From Marinomonas sp. KMM3893 (lineage in GTDB: Bacteria; Pseudomonadota; Gammaproteobacteria; Pseudomonadales; Marinomonadaceae), in NCBI RefSeq assembly GCF_004352855.1, contig NZ_SJSC01000007.1, forward strand, positions 124,001-188,000: a stretch of 64,000 bases of DNA. Reading direction: 5' to 3'. Below are positions 18,371 to 40,152 of the stretch, in pieces. The position numbers were made by a program, and so were the translations under genes. Below the pieces are notes generated by a model. The model saw nothing but the letters and a program-made list of their open reading frames with translations. It made no database searches and was not told where the DNA came from. The number at the start of each line of letters is the position of its first letter. Within the stretch, counting starts at the first letter, position 1.

Positions 18371-19372
18371 TTAGCGTAGGCAGCTCATAAATTGACCACT
18401 TACTTCAGATAAGAAGGCAAGGTAGGCACCACGATTAATTGTGATATCGGTCCCTAGTGGGTCTAAAGGAACCGAATTCACCTTGCTGCCGTCCAACAAG
18501 GTTTTGACGATCGCAGGGCTAAACTGTGGCTCACTAAACACACACTGCACTTTATTGTGATTAATCATTTCACGGATTTCGGCGATTTTCTTCGCACCAG
18601 GTTTGCGCTCAGGACTCACCGTCACTTCGCCAACATGATCCAAACCGTAATGCTGTTCAAAGTAGCCATAGCCATCGTGAAAAACAATATAAGGCACGTC
18701 TTTAACGGTCGATAAAGACGCTTTCAGTTCGGCGTCTTTAAGCGCTAGGCCTTTTTCAAAATCGGCTAGATTATGCTGATAAACACTGGCGTTCTCAGGG
18801 TCTAACAAGACCAAACGTTGCGCTACCGCAACCGCCAATACTTTCGCGTTGTCTGGGGATAACCACACATGAGGGTTCACACCATCGTGGTGATGACCTT
18901 CATGACCTTCATGTTCCTCGTGATCTTCATCATGATCTGCATGCTCGTTATGATGGTCGTCATGATCCGCGTGGTCTTCATGATGTTCGTCGTGGTCATC
19001 GTGATCCGCATGGTCGTCGTGATCGGCATGATCTTTTGAAAACTCTTGTAGGGTCATGCCTTTAAGCGCTAACCATTCAATCGACGAATCTTCTTTACCC
19101 GCATTTTCGAGTGGCTTTTCTAAAAAACGCTCTAGCGCCTCCCCCACCCAAACAACGGTATCGGCTTGATCTATTTTGCGAAGATCAGACGGGCGCAGAG
19201 CAAAATCGTGAGGAGAAGCGGTGCTAGAGACAATTTGTTCAATCTTAGCGTGATCGCCAGCGATGGCAGCCACCACCATAGAAACAGGCTTAATACTGGT
19301 GACAATAACCGGCTTAGCAAACAGAACCGGTGACAATACGGACGCACCCAAGGCAACTAACAACTTATTCAT
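18371..19372 (-). CDS. znuA: High-affinity zinc-binding periplasmic protein ZnuA
   Basis: This 333-residue solute-binding protein of a zinc ABC importer has a signal peptide (MNKLLVALGASVLSPVLFA). Zinc ligands are expected at the histidine of SPHDFALRPSD, in NPHVWLSPDN, and in the VFHDGYGYFEQHYGL segment. Between them (about residues 113-167) lies a long His/Asp/Glu loop built of HADHDDH-like repeats, the mobile zinc-gathering loop of ZnuA. A C-terminal Cys pairs with the conserved VQCVFSEPQF cysteine. No znuB or znuC is adjacent, so the permease and ATPase must be elsewhere. A Zur-type box lies upstream. Confidence 0.95.
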   Translation of the reverse strand: MNKLLVALGASVLSPVLFAKPVIVTSIKPVSMVVAAIAGDHAKIEQIVSSTASPHDFALRPSDLRKIDQADTVVWVGEALERFLEKPLENAGKEDSSIEWLALKGMTLQEFSKDHADHDDHADHDDHDEHHEDHADHDDHHNEHADHDEDHEEHEGHEGHHHDGVNPHVWLSPDNAKVLAVAVAQRLVLLDPENASVYQHNLADFEKGLALKDAELKASLSTVKDVPYIVFHDGYGYFEQHYGLDHVGEVTVSPERKPGAKKIAEIREMINHNKVQCVFSEPQFSPAIVKTLLDGSKVNSVPLDPLGTDITINRGAYLAFLSEVSGQFMSCLR

Positions 19373-35355: not shown

Positions 35356-36639
35356 GTGTTTTTATCCTTCTTCCCAAAACCTAAGTTATTCTTTTTGAGC
35401 TTTGCCTTATGGGCGCTTGTTTGTGTTTTAGGCTGGTATCTTGCGATACAAGATTTAGGCAGCACACTCAGCTTGGCCTCTTTGTTTGGCCTGCATTTTC
35501 CTGAAGCCTTAACTCCAGATGCCGATGCCGCAGCCAAAGCGGCCTTTGCCAGTGCTCAAGAATTTGCAGTCGATGTCTGGCTATACCAATATATGTTGGT
35601 TTGTTATGCCATTTTCATTGGCACTTGGGTGGCTTATGGCGGGCAGAAATGGGCTAAATGGTCTGTTATCGGCTCTGGTTTAATCGTCTTTATCACTTGG
35701 TTCCAAGTACAAGTCAGTGTGATGATTAACGAATGGTATGGCAGCTTTTATGACCTTATCCAAAAAGCACTCAGTGCACCAAACAGCATTACTTTAACGC
35801 AATTTTATTCACAATTATCAACCTTCGCGATCATCGCCCTAGTGGCCATTACTGTGTCTGTATTGAATAACTTTTTTGTCAGTCATTATGTGTTCCGCTG
35901 GCGCACAGCGATGAACGATTACTACACCTCAAAATGGCAGCAGGTTCGCCAAATTGAAGGGGCGTCACAGCGTATTCAAGAAGACACCATGCGCTTTGCC
36001 AATATCGTGGAAAGCCTTGGGGTTCGTTTTCTAGATTCCATTATGACCTTGCTGGCCTTCTTGCCCGTTCTATGGGGATTGTCTTCATACGTCACCACCT
36101 TGCCCTTTATTGGCGAGGTGCCTCAAGCACTCGTGTTTGTGGCCATTTTATGGGCGATCATAGGCACAACGCTATTGGCGGTCGCAGGGATTCGCTTACC
36201 AGGGCTAGAGTTTAAAAACCAACGTGTTGAAGCGGCTTATCGAAAAGAGTTGGTGTATGGGGAAGACTTTGAAGATCGTGCTGAGCCAGCGAAATTAGTA
36301 GAGCTGTTCGCAAATGTTCGCAAAAACTATTTCCGACTGTACTTTAACTACCTGTATTTCAACGTGGTGCGTTATGGCTACCTACAAGCTGGGGTTTTAG
36401 TGCCTTTGATTGCATTAGGGCCTTCTATTGTGGCGGGGGCATTCACGCTTGGTATCATGCAGCGAATTTCAAACGCGTTTGGTCAGGTCGAAAGTTCTTT
36501 CCAATTTTTGGTTAATTCTTGGACCACCATAGTAGAACTCTTGTCTATTCATAAACGTCTAAAAGCGTTTGAAGCCGCCATTAATGACCAGCCTCTGCCT
36601 GCGGTCGATCAAGAGTTTCTGGCCAAACAAGACGACTAA
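35356..36639 (+). CDS. sbmA: SbmA/BacA-family peptide transporter
   Basis: This 427-residue inner-membrane protein drives proton-coupled uptake of peptides such as microcins and proline-rich peptides in E. coli. Family signatures are INEWYGSFYDLIQKAL, NNFFVSHYVFRWRTAMNDYYTSKWQQVRQIEGASQRIQEDTMRFA, and the C-terminal FRLYFNYLYFNVVRYGYLQ. About seven to eight hydrophobic helices can be drawn; there is no ATPase domain. It starts with GTG, preceded by AGAGAG. It is monocistronic, with 325 bp of gene-free DNA upstream and a clear terminator after it. Confidence 0.93.
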   Translation: MFLSFFPKPKLFFLSFALWALVCVLGWYLAIQDLGSTLSLASLFGLHFPEALTPDADAAAKAAFASAQEFAVDVWLYQYMLVCYAIFIGTWVAYGGQKWAKWSVIGSGLIVFITWFQVQVSVMINEWYGSFYDLIQKALSAPNSITLTQFYSQLSTFAIIALVAITVSVLNNFFVSHYVFRWRTAMNDYYTSKWQQVRQIEGASQRIQEDTMRFANIVESLGVRFLDSIMTLLAFLPVLWGLSSYVTTLPFIGEVPQALVFVAILWAIIGTTLLAVAGIRLPGLEFKNQRVEAAYRKELVYGEDFEDRAEPAKLVELFANVRKNYFRLYFNYLYFNVVRYGYLQAGVLVPLIALGPSIVAGAFTLGIMQRISNAFGQVESSFQFLVNSWTTIVELLSIHKRLKAFEAAINDQPLPAVDQEFLAKQDD

Positions 36640-36702
36640 ACGCGCTGCGTATCTTTGTTGCTCAGTCAGTCTTTGTCCTTAGATAGCCAGTACCGCAAAA
36701 GC

Positions 36703-36741
36703 AAAAATGCCTTCAATAGAAACCATTGAAGGCATTTTTTA
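36703..36741. terminator. Bidirectional terminator
   Basis: AAAAATGCCTTCAAT (36703-36717) pairs perfectly with ATTGAAGGCATTTTT (36724-36738) around a six-base loop, with A and T runs at the two ends. It separates sbmA from the convergent small gene. Confidence 0.92.
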
Positions 36742-36783
36742 TGGTTCTGAAAGCGGCATAGCAAAAGGGAAGTCGAATTGAGT

Positions 36784-36996
36784 TTAGACTCGAATATTCA
36801 CACTCTGACCCAAATTATCAGTTGTTGCATGATTACCACTACTAGCAGCAGGGGTAGGATTCACCGAGCTGGCACTTTCTAATAAATCTAACGCTTGTTG
36901 CCCTCTGTGGGCAATAACGTCTTTATTCAAATTTGCGCTGTATGCTTCTTTTGCGTAAGACATTGAAGCGGCGCCGACGCCACTAATCTCAGACAT
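36784..36996 (-). CDS. Small protein, YjfB-like putative motility protein
   Basis: This 70-residue soluble protein reads MSEISGVGAASMSYAKEAY at its start and GQQALDLLESA in the middle. A low-complexity Ser/Ala/Pro/Asn linker leads to the terminal LGQSVNIRV. The LLE...LGQ-x-V/I-N/D-I-R-V ending is the signature I associate with the YjfB_motility family of about 60-70 residues, whose function is undefined. The ribosome site AGGGGAAG before the ATG is excellent, supporting real translation. Upstream lies an unusual cluster of six GATC sites. No flagellar gene is in the window. Confidence 0.55.
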   Translation of the reverse strand: MSEISGVGAASMSYAKEAYSANLNKDVIAHRGQQALDLLESASSVNPTPAASSGNHATTDNLGQSVNIRV

Positions 36997-37087
36997 AACT
37001 TCCCCTCCCTATCTAACCTTTTAGGCTTTTACACCAACAAGGTTACTGTTCAAAAATAAAGCTATTTATGAACTATAGCGAGAATCT

Positions 37088-37191
37088 GATCAATTTACGA
37101 TCAAAAAATAAGGAAATTAGATCAATAAACACTCACAAACAAGCAAAAATGATCAATTAACCACCAAAATGATCACTGCAGTACAATGATC
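37088..37191. promoter_or_regulatory. Phased cluster of six GATC sites
   Basis: GATC occurs at 37088, 37099, 37120, 37151, 37171 and 37188, all within GATCA and four within the palindrome TGATCA. Spacings of 11, 21, 31, 20 and 17 bp are mostly near whole helical turns. The cluster lies upstream of the small gene at 36784-36996. Dam methylation, SeqA-type binding or a TGATCA-reading repressor are possibilities. Confidence 0.6.
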
Positions 37192-37236
37192 AACCAATAG
37201 GTTCGCGACCTCTTCGCGGCCTTTTTTCCTAGCGCT

Positions 37237-40152
37237 TTAGAGATCTGGTGAATTAACAAACTCATCCCAATACCCGCTCACCAACGCTTGGTTCGCCATC
37301 AATGCATCCCCTTGAACCACTCGCCCCTGTTTTTGCAGCGTTAATCTGTGACTGTGCGAGCGATAAAGTGTGTAGGTGTCTATCATCTTCTCGGCTTTTT
37401 CAGAGGAGATCAGACCCACCTTAGAAGCCGCTTCTATCTGGCGCACATTGTCAGAATACGCCATTAACTCTGGGTAACGATGAGACCAAGCCAGCACCAG
37501 GTATTGCACCATGAACTCAATATCTATGATGCCACCAGCACCTTGCTTCAAATCAAAGCCCTTTTCTTTACCGCCCGTGTCCAAGTGTGCGCGCATTTTT
37601 TCACGCATTTTAACCACTTCTGCTTTTAGCTCTTCTCGATTACGTTGAGAGCCAATGATGCTCCGGCGGCAATCTTCAAATTTCGCTTTTAACGCCGCAT
37701 TACCGGCCAGCGCTCGAGCCCGGGTCAATGCTTGATGCTCCCACGTCCACGCTTCTTTTTGCTGATAATCCTGAAACGCTTCTAAACGCGTAACAAGCAG
37801 CCCAGAATTTCCTGAAGGTCGTAACCGCATATCCACTTCATAGAGGCGCCCAGCTGCGGTAAAGCTGGTAATAATGTGAATTAAACGCTGCCCTAAACGA
37901 GTATAGAAGGTGAGATTGTCTATGCTTCGGTTGCCATTGGTGTAGCCGTTGGCTTGCGCATCATGAATAAACACCAAGTCGAGATCTGAATCGTAACCCA
38001 GCTCCCAACCACCTGATTTTCCATAGCCAATAATGGCCAGTTGCGGTCTAGTGGCTTCTTCACCATCACTCACAGGAAAACCATGCTTGGTGGTTAAATA
38101 TCGCCAAGACTGCTGTAACACTTGTTCTAACAGCACTTCCGCTAACCAAGTTAAGTGATCACTCACTTTCATAATTGGCAGTATGTTGGTGATATCGCAG
38201 GCGGCAATGCGCAAAATGATCGACAATCTGAAGCGGCGCATGGCGTCCATTTGAGCTTCTTCATCGTCCTCAGGTAGACGTAATAAAATTTGCTGTAGCT
38301 CGTCTTCGAGCATTTGTTTAGTCGGTGGGCAAAATAACGTGGTGGCATCCAACAACTCATCCAACAAAGAAGGTGTCGCAGAAATTGCCTCACTAAACCA
38401 AGCACTTTCTCGGCATAAACGGATAAGGTGCGTAATCGCGGTGGGGTTTTCACATAACAACACAAGGTAGGCGGTCCGGCGAAGCACGGCTTCTAAAATA
38501 GGCAACACCCTATCCATGACCAAATCAGGCGTACTTTCATGCTCCAATTGGGAGACAAACATCGCCAAGAAGATGGCCAGACGTTCCTGCCCTATAGGTT
38601 GCATAAAGACAATGTTTTTCGACGATAGAAACACGGATATACGCTGTACAGTGGCGTCTTTATCCTGCCAAACAATGCCATCTAAGGCATCACTAATGGC
38701 GTCTTTATCATCAGCATGCTTTAGCAATAGCCGCCATGTGTCTTGGATTTTAATCTCTTCGCTGGTCTCTTCGCCGTCGTCTATTAGCTCTAGAAACAAG
38801 CGATGCACATTACGTCTCACGTCCCACAGCGCACTGTCTAAGCTTTCCCATGAAGCATAGCCTACCATAAGCGCAATGCGTGTTCGCTCAGTTTCATCAT
38901 TTGGTAGTAACTGAGTTTGTTCATCTTTTACCGCCTGCAAAGCGTGCTCTGTGCGTCTTAATAACTGATAGGCATTCGCGAGTTGCTCCACGTCAGTGGC
39001 AGACAAATAATCCTGCTCTGCAAGGTAAGGCAACACTTTTAATAAGGCCGGACGTTGCAATCCACTGTCGCGCCCACCATGAAGGATTTGCAGCGCTTGA
39101 GCAATAAACTCAACTTCTCGAATTCCGCCTTCGCCCAACTTAATATTGTGCTCTATGTCTTTACGGCGCACTTCTTTTGCGATCATTTTTTTCAGGTCTC
39201 GCAATGCCCCAATCGCGCCGAAATCTAAATACTTGCGATAAACGAACGGCTTTCTGAGCATTTCAAACTCTGCAACATCGGTACTATTCCCCGCCATCAC
39301 ACGAGCTTTTATCATCGCATAACGCTCCCAGTCTCGACCTTGATCCTGGTAGTAATTTTCCAATGAATCCATATTTAAGACGAGCGCACCAGACTGACCA
39401 AATGGTCGCAAGCGCATATCAACACGGAACACAAAGCCGTCTGCGGTAATCTGATCTAAATGCTGGATGAGCTTTTGACCAAGCTTAGTAAAGTACTCCT
39501 GATGTGACAGGCTCTTCTTGCCTCCAGACGTCTCACCGTGCTCGCGAAAAGCAAAAATCAAATCGATGTCTGACGATAAATTCAGCTCATTACCACCGAG
39601 CTTTCCCATCCCAATCACAATTAAGGATTGAAGCTCACCCGAAGCGTCTAATGCCTGCCCATAAAGCGCCCTATAATGCTGAGTGGACCACTGTATGCTG
39701 GCATTCACACAGGCATCTGCTAACGCGCTCAACCTCAGCGTCAAATCGGTTAAGCTGATTTTTTGCTGAATATCCAAGGCAATCAGCCGCACCATCCACC
39801 ACTGACGATAAAGACGTAAACGCGCCATCATTGCACTTTCATCAAGCTCACTGATCGTAAGACCATTGGTTGCTACCACAGATTGACCTGAGATCAAATC
39901 TTCCATTGAAGGCAAAGTGGGCAAGGCCTCTAAAACAAGCAAATCATCTAACCAGGCTGGAAAGCGGACACATTGCTGATGAAGGTAATCACTGAGCAAC
40001 CAAAGCGGCTCTAATACCGCCACTTGTTGCTCCGTTAACAGGGTTAATCCACGTTGCTGGCGGGCTTCTTGAATGGCTTCAACAAGCAAGCAACGATTAT
40101 CAAGTTGCGCACAAAAAGCATCATAAACTGGGTTTAAAGCAGGTGGGGTCAA
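37237..40152 (-). CDS. glnE: Glutamine synthetase adenylyltransferase/deadenylase
   Basis: This 971-residue bifunctional enzyme adds and removes AMP on glutamine synthetase under PII control. Two nucleotidyltransferase domains are visible. The first has VIGMGKLGGNELNLSSDIDLIFAF (about 170-195, deadenylase); the second has IIGYGKSGGWELGYDSDLDLVFI (about 690-715, adenylylase). Both keep the GKxGxxE...SDxD metal site. Each is followed by helical domains with KLGEGGIREVEFIAQ and DLKQGAGGIIDIEFMVQY. Length is normal. It follows the ygiF-type triphosphatase gene in the same direction, the enterobacterial order. glnK lies 13 kb away. Confidence 0.97.
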   Translation of the reverse strand: MTPPALNPVYDAFCAQLDNRCLLVEAIQEARQQRGLTLLTEQQVAVLEPLWLLSDYLHQQCVRFPAWLDDLLVLEALPTLPSMEDLISGQSVVATNGLTISELDESAMMARLRLYRQWWMVRLIALDIQQKISLTDLTLRLSALADACVNASIQWSTQHYRALYGQALDASGELQSLIVIGMGKLGGNELNLSSDIDLIFAFREHGETSGGKKSLSHQEYFTKLGQKLIQHLDQITADGFVFRVDMRLRPFGQSGALVLNMDSLENYYQDQGRDWERYAMIKARVMAGNSTDVAEFEMLRKPFVYRKYLDFGAIGALRDLKKMIAKEVRRKDIEHNIKLGEGGIREVEFIAQALQILHGGRDSGLQRPALLKVLPYLAEQDYLSATDVEQLANAYQLLRRTEHALQAVKDEQTQLLPNDETERTRIALMVGYASWESLDSALWDVRRNVHRLFLELIDDGEETSEEIKIQDTWRLLLKHADDKDAISDALDGIVWQDKDATVQRISVFLSSKNIVFMQPIGQERLAIFLAMFVSQLEHESTPDLVMDRVLPILEAVLRRTAYLVLLCENPTAITHLIRLCRESAWFSEAISATPSLLDELLDATTLFCPPTKQMLEDELQQILLRLPEDDEEAQMDAMRRFRLSIILRIAACDITNILPIMKVSDHLTWLAEVLLEQVLQQSWRYLTTKHGFPVSDGEEATRPQLAIIGYGKSGGWELGYDSDLDLVFIHDAQANGYTNGNRSIDNLTFYTRLGQRLIHIITSFTAAGRLYEVDMRLRPSGNSGLLVTRLEAFQDYQQKEAWTWEHQALTRARALAGNAALKAKFEDCRRSIIGSQRNREELKAEVVKMREKMRAHLDTGGKEKGFDLKQGAGGIIDIEFMVQYLVLAWSHRYPELMAYSDNVRQIEAASKVGLISSEKAEKMIDTYTLYRSHSHRLTLQKQGRVVQGDALMANQALVSGYWDEFVNSPDL

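Follow-up and report, generated by a model that had tools for sequence, protein, structure and literature searches.

The six GATC sites that are clustered between glnE and a small gene in Marinomonas sp. KMM3893 most probably (we would put the probability at roughly two in three) belong to the promoter region of that small, YjfB-like gene and do not constitute a methylation switch. As judged from a comparison of related genomes, the core promoter would consist of a TCGTAAA -35 element, a 16-bp spacer that holds a TTGAYCA-like box, and a CTATACT -10 element (here CTATAGT). The GATC sites at 37088 and 37099 would be parts of this core promoter, and the other four would be extra copies of its directional box, present mainly in this species. 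The extra copies may be sites for a protein that reads the spacer box or may be the remains of a 31-bp repeat, and base pairing between the two most distal ones would give a weak hairpin behind glnE that resembles a terminator. Dam methylation would not be required for any step. All positions refer to the window, i.e. the full stretch of 64 kb that was analysed.

Locus and genome sample

The cluster is situated in the gap between the end of glnE (37237..40152, minus strand; Pfam GlnE, 1e-158), which is the upstream neighbour, and an ORF of 70 codons (36784..36996, minus strand) that a profile-profile match relates remotely to YjfB. The ATG of the small gene is preceded by GGAGG, i.e. by the good ribosome site that the initial annotation had assigned to it. 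Within the 48 Marinomonas genomes of our sample (the own genome included) glnE is universally present, the small protein was matched in 47, and the small gene was found behind glnE in 40, the remaining eight lacking it there by the criterion used. The closest glnE ends are those of M. pollencensis (87% identical) and M. flavescens (86%). At the DNA level the gap as such matched in three of 37 genomes, namely in its own, as a 60-bp piece in M. flavescens (G006) and as a 44-bp piece in G035. A known RNA family was considered for 36600-37500 and rejected, as all five matches (E up to 5) remained under their gathering scores. The literature yielded nothing on Dam methylation in connection with GATC in Marinomonas, nor on a Marinomonas glnE promoter. 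On the far side of the small gene, a perfect 15-bp inverted repeat flanked by A and T runs (36703-36739) resembles a terminator working in both directions, placed between the small gene and a convergent gene of the SbmA/BacA family.

A putative core promoter conserved across the genus

In 33 of the 48 genomes, all of them among the 40 syntenic ones, TCGTAAA and a CTATACT-like element were found together in the intergenic gap behind glnE. These 33 genomes were selected by a pattern that was written after the sequences had been seen; the seven syntenic genomes without the element and the eight non-syntenic genomes, 15 in all, fall outside every count of 33 given below. GATC is absent from the gap in six of the seven syntenic genomes without the element and occurs twice in the seventh (G014).

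The -35 element (37094..37100, minus strand) reads exactly TCGTAAA in 31 of the 33 genomes, and its T, C, G and first A are invariant in all of them. The -10 element (37072..37078, minus strand) is CTATAGT in this genome, whereas 22 of the 33 have CTATACT. The -10 hexamer takes the form TATA(C/G/A)T or TACA(C/A)T in 32 genomes and TAAACT in one, with positions 1, 2, 4 and 6 invariant throughout, and the spacer between the -35 element and this hexamer measures 16 bp in 33 of 33, where lengths of 13-19 bp had been allowed with a penalty. Around -45 to -41 the sequence is A-rich in most relatives, whereas M. pollencensis and this genome show a run of T there; an A-rich tract directly upstream of the -35 resembles an UP element. 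The putative core promoter is well supported by this comparison across the genus, and the initial annotation had read the placement well, in that the GATC cluster overlaps and abuts it.

With promoters of the sigma-70/sigma-S type the element shares a TATACT-like -10 hexamer and the 16-bp spacer, and CTATACT is near the preference of sigma-S. It differs from sigma-70 promoters at the -35, where TCGTAAA (taken as TCGTAA or as CGTAAA) fits TTGACA poorly and is yet the most conserved part here; a scan with the sigma-70 consensus missed the promoter of the small gene. The flagellar sigma-28 (FliA) was considered as well. Two flagellin genes of this genome are preceded by TAAA-N15-GCCGATAA and TAAA-N15-GTCGATAT, and the small gene shows the same arrangement of TAAA, 15 bases and an octamer, but the octamer is CTATAGTT and not GCCGATAA or GTCGATAT (all by eye; a third flagellin-family gene of the genome has no such site). 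The promoter of the small gene thus has the spacing of these two flagellin promoters with a different -10, and a sigma-28 promoter was rejected on the latter ground. Three diverged relatives of the small gene (L072, L076 and L078, in G016, G039 and G022) have GCCGATAA upstream and no CTATACT promoter (again by eye). This suggests a promoter swap within the genus, and an older flagellar link is possible because these three genomes show GCCGATAA before the small gene.

Searches for further copies covered 47 of the 48 genomes (G048 was left out). The exact pattern TCGTAAA-N15-CTATAVT occurs in 26 of these, once in each, 24 times at the locus and twice elsewhere; its backward control gave nine matches. 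A 48-nt sequence model, trained on the 33 selected genomes, recovered the locus in 32 of the 47 (E <= 1.3e-4), with the next match elsewhere at E 0.0052. Neither the pattern nor the model, the filters of which are stricter and lose weak matches, yielded a regulon sharing the promoter. As far as these searches reach, the promoter would be specific to this gene and not a regulon motif.

The GATC cluster is real but moderately rare

Six GATC sites do lie within 104 bp (37088, 37099, 37120, 37151, 37171 and 37188), at the spacings of 11, 21, 31, 20 and 17 bp that had been reported; all six read GATCA and four read TGATCA, in agreement with the initial annotation. The gap (36997-37236) is also AT-rich as described, at 36% G+C, and since the plus strand of 37080-37195 consists for 49% of A, GATCA is favoured there. 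The helical phasing is weaker than had been claimed: five sites are at most 1 bp off a 10.5-bp phase, and 37188 is half a turn off; the probability of this phasing is 0.012 with the period fixed at 10.5 bp and 0.087 with the period left free over 10-11 bp.

GATC is common in the window, with 258 occurrences (one per 248 bp) and 204 expected from dinucleotide shuffles. Of 5000 uniform random placements of 258 sites, 1.2% produced a cluster of six in 104 bp (P 0.012 per 64 kb), and none of 4000 shuffles of the gap contained six GATCs. In a 400-kb sample of this genome, 112 bp never held six GATCs, and five fell within 104 bp once. Of the 202 4-mers that occur no more than 320 times in the window, five (GATC included) form a cluster of six within 104 bp somewhere in it, three of them in a His/Asp-rich coding stretch. 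The rarity of the cluster at 37088-37191 is real but moderate.

The His/Asp-rich coding stretch holds a second cluster, of six GATCs in 112 bp (18922-19033), and likewise has same-strand TGATC repeats. The encoded protein is presumably ZnuA-like, and Asp-His codon pairs are able to yield GATC.

Directional boxes and individual sites

In the direction of the small gene five of the six GATCs are part of TTGATC, and the one at 37171 reads GTGATC. The four sites outside the core look like copies of the box, since on the gene strand TTGATC is found at three of them and GTGATC at the fourth. Across 464 kb of the genome, the five same-strand TTGATC in 106 bp are the sole instance of at least four within 110 bp.

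Across the 33 genomes the sites are not conserved as GATC: a GATC is present at the six offsets in 11, 4, 2, 1, 1 and 1 genomes (the own one included), and the gaps contain none (9 genomes), one (15), two (7), three (1) or six (1). The promoters of the relatives have TTGAYCA-like letters in place of a fixed GATC. The spacer box TTGATCA around 37088 (37087..37093, minus strand) has GATC in 11 of 33 and otherwise GACC, AGCC or other letters, and the TTGATC that overlaps the -35 (37099..37104, minus strand) has it in four of 33. Upstream of the core, the TTGATC at 37120..37125 (minus strand) has a counterpart GATC in G054, and M. pollencensis has TTGACC at that place. For the TTGATC at 37151..37156 (minus strand) the other 32 genomes have no GATC at the offset, and for that at 37188..37193 (minus strand) no GATC is found at the exact offset elsewhere; M. 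pollencensis has one 4 bp off, the correspondence of which is uncertain. The outcome that the initial annotation had named as a refutation applies to four of the six sites, in that the relatives keep glnE and the small gene but, at these offsets, not the GATCs; it does not apply to 37088 and 37099.

The leader holds a further box, TTGAACA (37047..37053, minus strand), roughly 12 nt downstream of the predicted transcription start. Of the 33 genomes, 10 carry TTGANCA in the core and 15, this one among them, in the leader, where shuffles give 0.28 and 1.35, and 12 of the 15 leader boxes begin 17-19 nt past the -10. GATC as such is enriched too (15 vs 2.56 in shuffles for the cores, 15 vs 6.34 for the leaders). 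These enrichment tests and the choice of the hexamer were made after the pattern had been seen, in genomes that are related. With this genome left out, the upstream segments show no clear excess of TTGATC (1 seen vs 0.37 expected) or of GATC (4 vs 1.97), so that the array of boxes rests on one genome. The start of the leader (37040-37065) has letters in common with many relatives (ATTGATG, a T run and TTGANCA), and these could represent a DNA or an RNA signal.

The region 37083-37170 is joined by a direct repeat of 31-32 bp, for which the best pair of 25-mers has P 0.005 and the lag identity over the whole region does not exceed chance (P 0.36).

Hairpins behind glnE

The GATCs at 37171 (within GTGATC) and 37188 can pair into a hairpin that is followed by TTTT (37170..37192, minus strand; -11.1 kcal/mol, z -2.9). 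With 0.8 terminator-like hits expected per region in shuffles, this is a possible weak terminator of glnE. A terminator-like hairpin with a T run on the plus strand (37203..37227) points antisense into the 3' end of glnE and sits just outside it; a plus-strand small RNA that ends there, near 37227, is conceivable. By eye, glnE of M. pollencensis is followed by an inverted repeat and a run of T, for which the terminator scanner reported nothing.

Competing explanations for the cluster

As one of two options the initial annotation had offered a Dam/SeqA-type switch. In such a switch, GATCs clustered on one face of the helix would stay hemi- or unmethylated and thereby set whether the small gene is on or off. 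We consider this very improbable, and it is already largely refuted. The density and the partial phasing of the sites would suit it, as would the surplus of GATC that the relatives show over shuffles in core and leader, but the machinery was not found in searches for four families, all with a positive E. coli control: SeqA had no match in any of the 48 genus genomes, and MethyltransfD12 (PF02086, the family of Dam), N6_N4_Mtase (PF01555) and MutH had none in this genome (MethyltransfD12 matched in seven of the 48, in three over nearly the full profile). Moreover, the lack of conservation of four of the six sites, and a promoter box that varies among GATC, GACC and other letters, argue against it. 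In PMC493266, E. coli clusters of this type are defined by a mean distance under 18 bp and are situated in coding sequences. The Marinomonas cluster resembles them in having several close GATCs, most of which face one side of the helix, and differs from them in its mean spacing of 20 bp and its intergenic position, besides the missing matches to SeqA, the D12 methylase and MutH and the four unconserved sites.

Two explanations compete for the four extra sites. They may be neutral remnants within a spacer rich in A, of which two have possibly been retained because they form a weak terminator stem, and we regard this as falling just short of an even bet: they are unconserved in M. pollencensis and M. 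flavescens, one doubtful site apart, and the repeat at a lag of 31-32 bp, the terminator-like hairpin and the A-rich plus strand are all consistent with it, although the gap shuffles that never reached six GATCs and the 400 kb of genome without such a cluster weigh against chance. The other candidate is an array of operators, i.e. a DNA-binding protein that would read TTGANCA/TTGATC boxes at about -28, at about +12 and at the extra upstream positions and exert cooperative control. In its favour are the set of five same-strand boxes, unique in 464 kb, the excess of TTGANCA over shuffles in cores and leaders with its narrow leader placement, the TTGACC of M. pollencensis at the place of 37120 and the helical phase of five of the six sites. 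The directional unit and the TTGAYCA-like boxes also fit that part of the initial annotation in which a protein reading TGATCA was proposed, which is conceivable without methylation. We nevertheless hold the array to be doubtful, given that the box was picked post hoc among non-independent relatives, that the extra boxes occur in one genome only, with no other such array in 464 kb, and that no regulator or binding protein was identified; to our knowledge none of the boxes of FNR, CpxR, TorR, RutR and other regulators fits. A neutral history of the extra boxes is somewhat more likely than an operator function. Still less probable is the fullest version: the genus would share a private promoter with a TCGTAAA that an unusual activator or sigma factor recognises and with TTGANCA operators in spacer and leader, and in this species the operator would have expanded to five or six boxes, largely in helical phase.

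The small YjfB-like protein

The small protein matches no Pfam or NCBIfam family at threshold. For PF14070 (YjfB_motility; curated cut-off 27 bits) the protein of the window gave no match, and none of 47 genomes of the genus reached the cut-off, the best score being 17.5 bits. A remote homology is nevertheless indicated by hhalign, in which a genus profile (built from 14 of the 40 syntenic small proteins) aligned to a YjfB-family profile (8 of 10 loci; L155 and L162 left out) with a probability of 97.1 and an E-value of 6.7e-11 over 41 columns. The likeness to the YjfB_motility proteins lies in the size, in a C-terminal ending of the LGQ-N-I type and in this profile-profile probability; the differences are that the protein falls under the family cut-off, that it is encoded behind glnE and that its promoter is unlike the form before two flagellin genes of the same genome. 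The profile of the small-protein family matched none of the solved structures, and the small protein matched none of the plasmid records. PMC11607428 places YjfB, described there as small and uncharacterised, in one sub-module together with the flagellar sigma-28. The small gene of Marinomonas is possibly linked to motility as well.

Implications

The locus illustrates how a conspicuous set of GATC sites can turn out to be a promoter that carries repeats of a box, in an organism where the methylation machinery that was searched for is not found. The genus would possess a conserved and apparently gene-specific promoter, with an unusual -35, before a member of a little-studied family that is associated with flagella elsewhere. 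If the array of boxes works, the gap behind glnE would be a small system in which the expansion of an operator can be watched between sister species.
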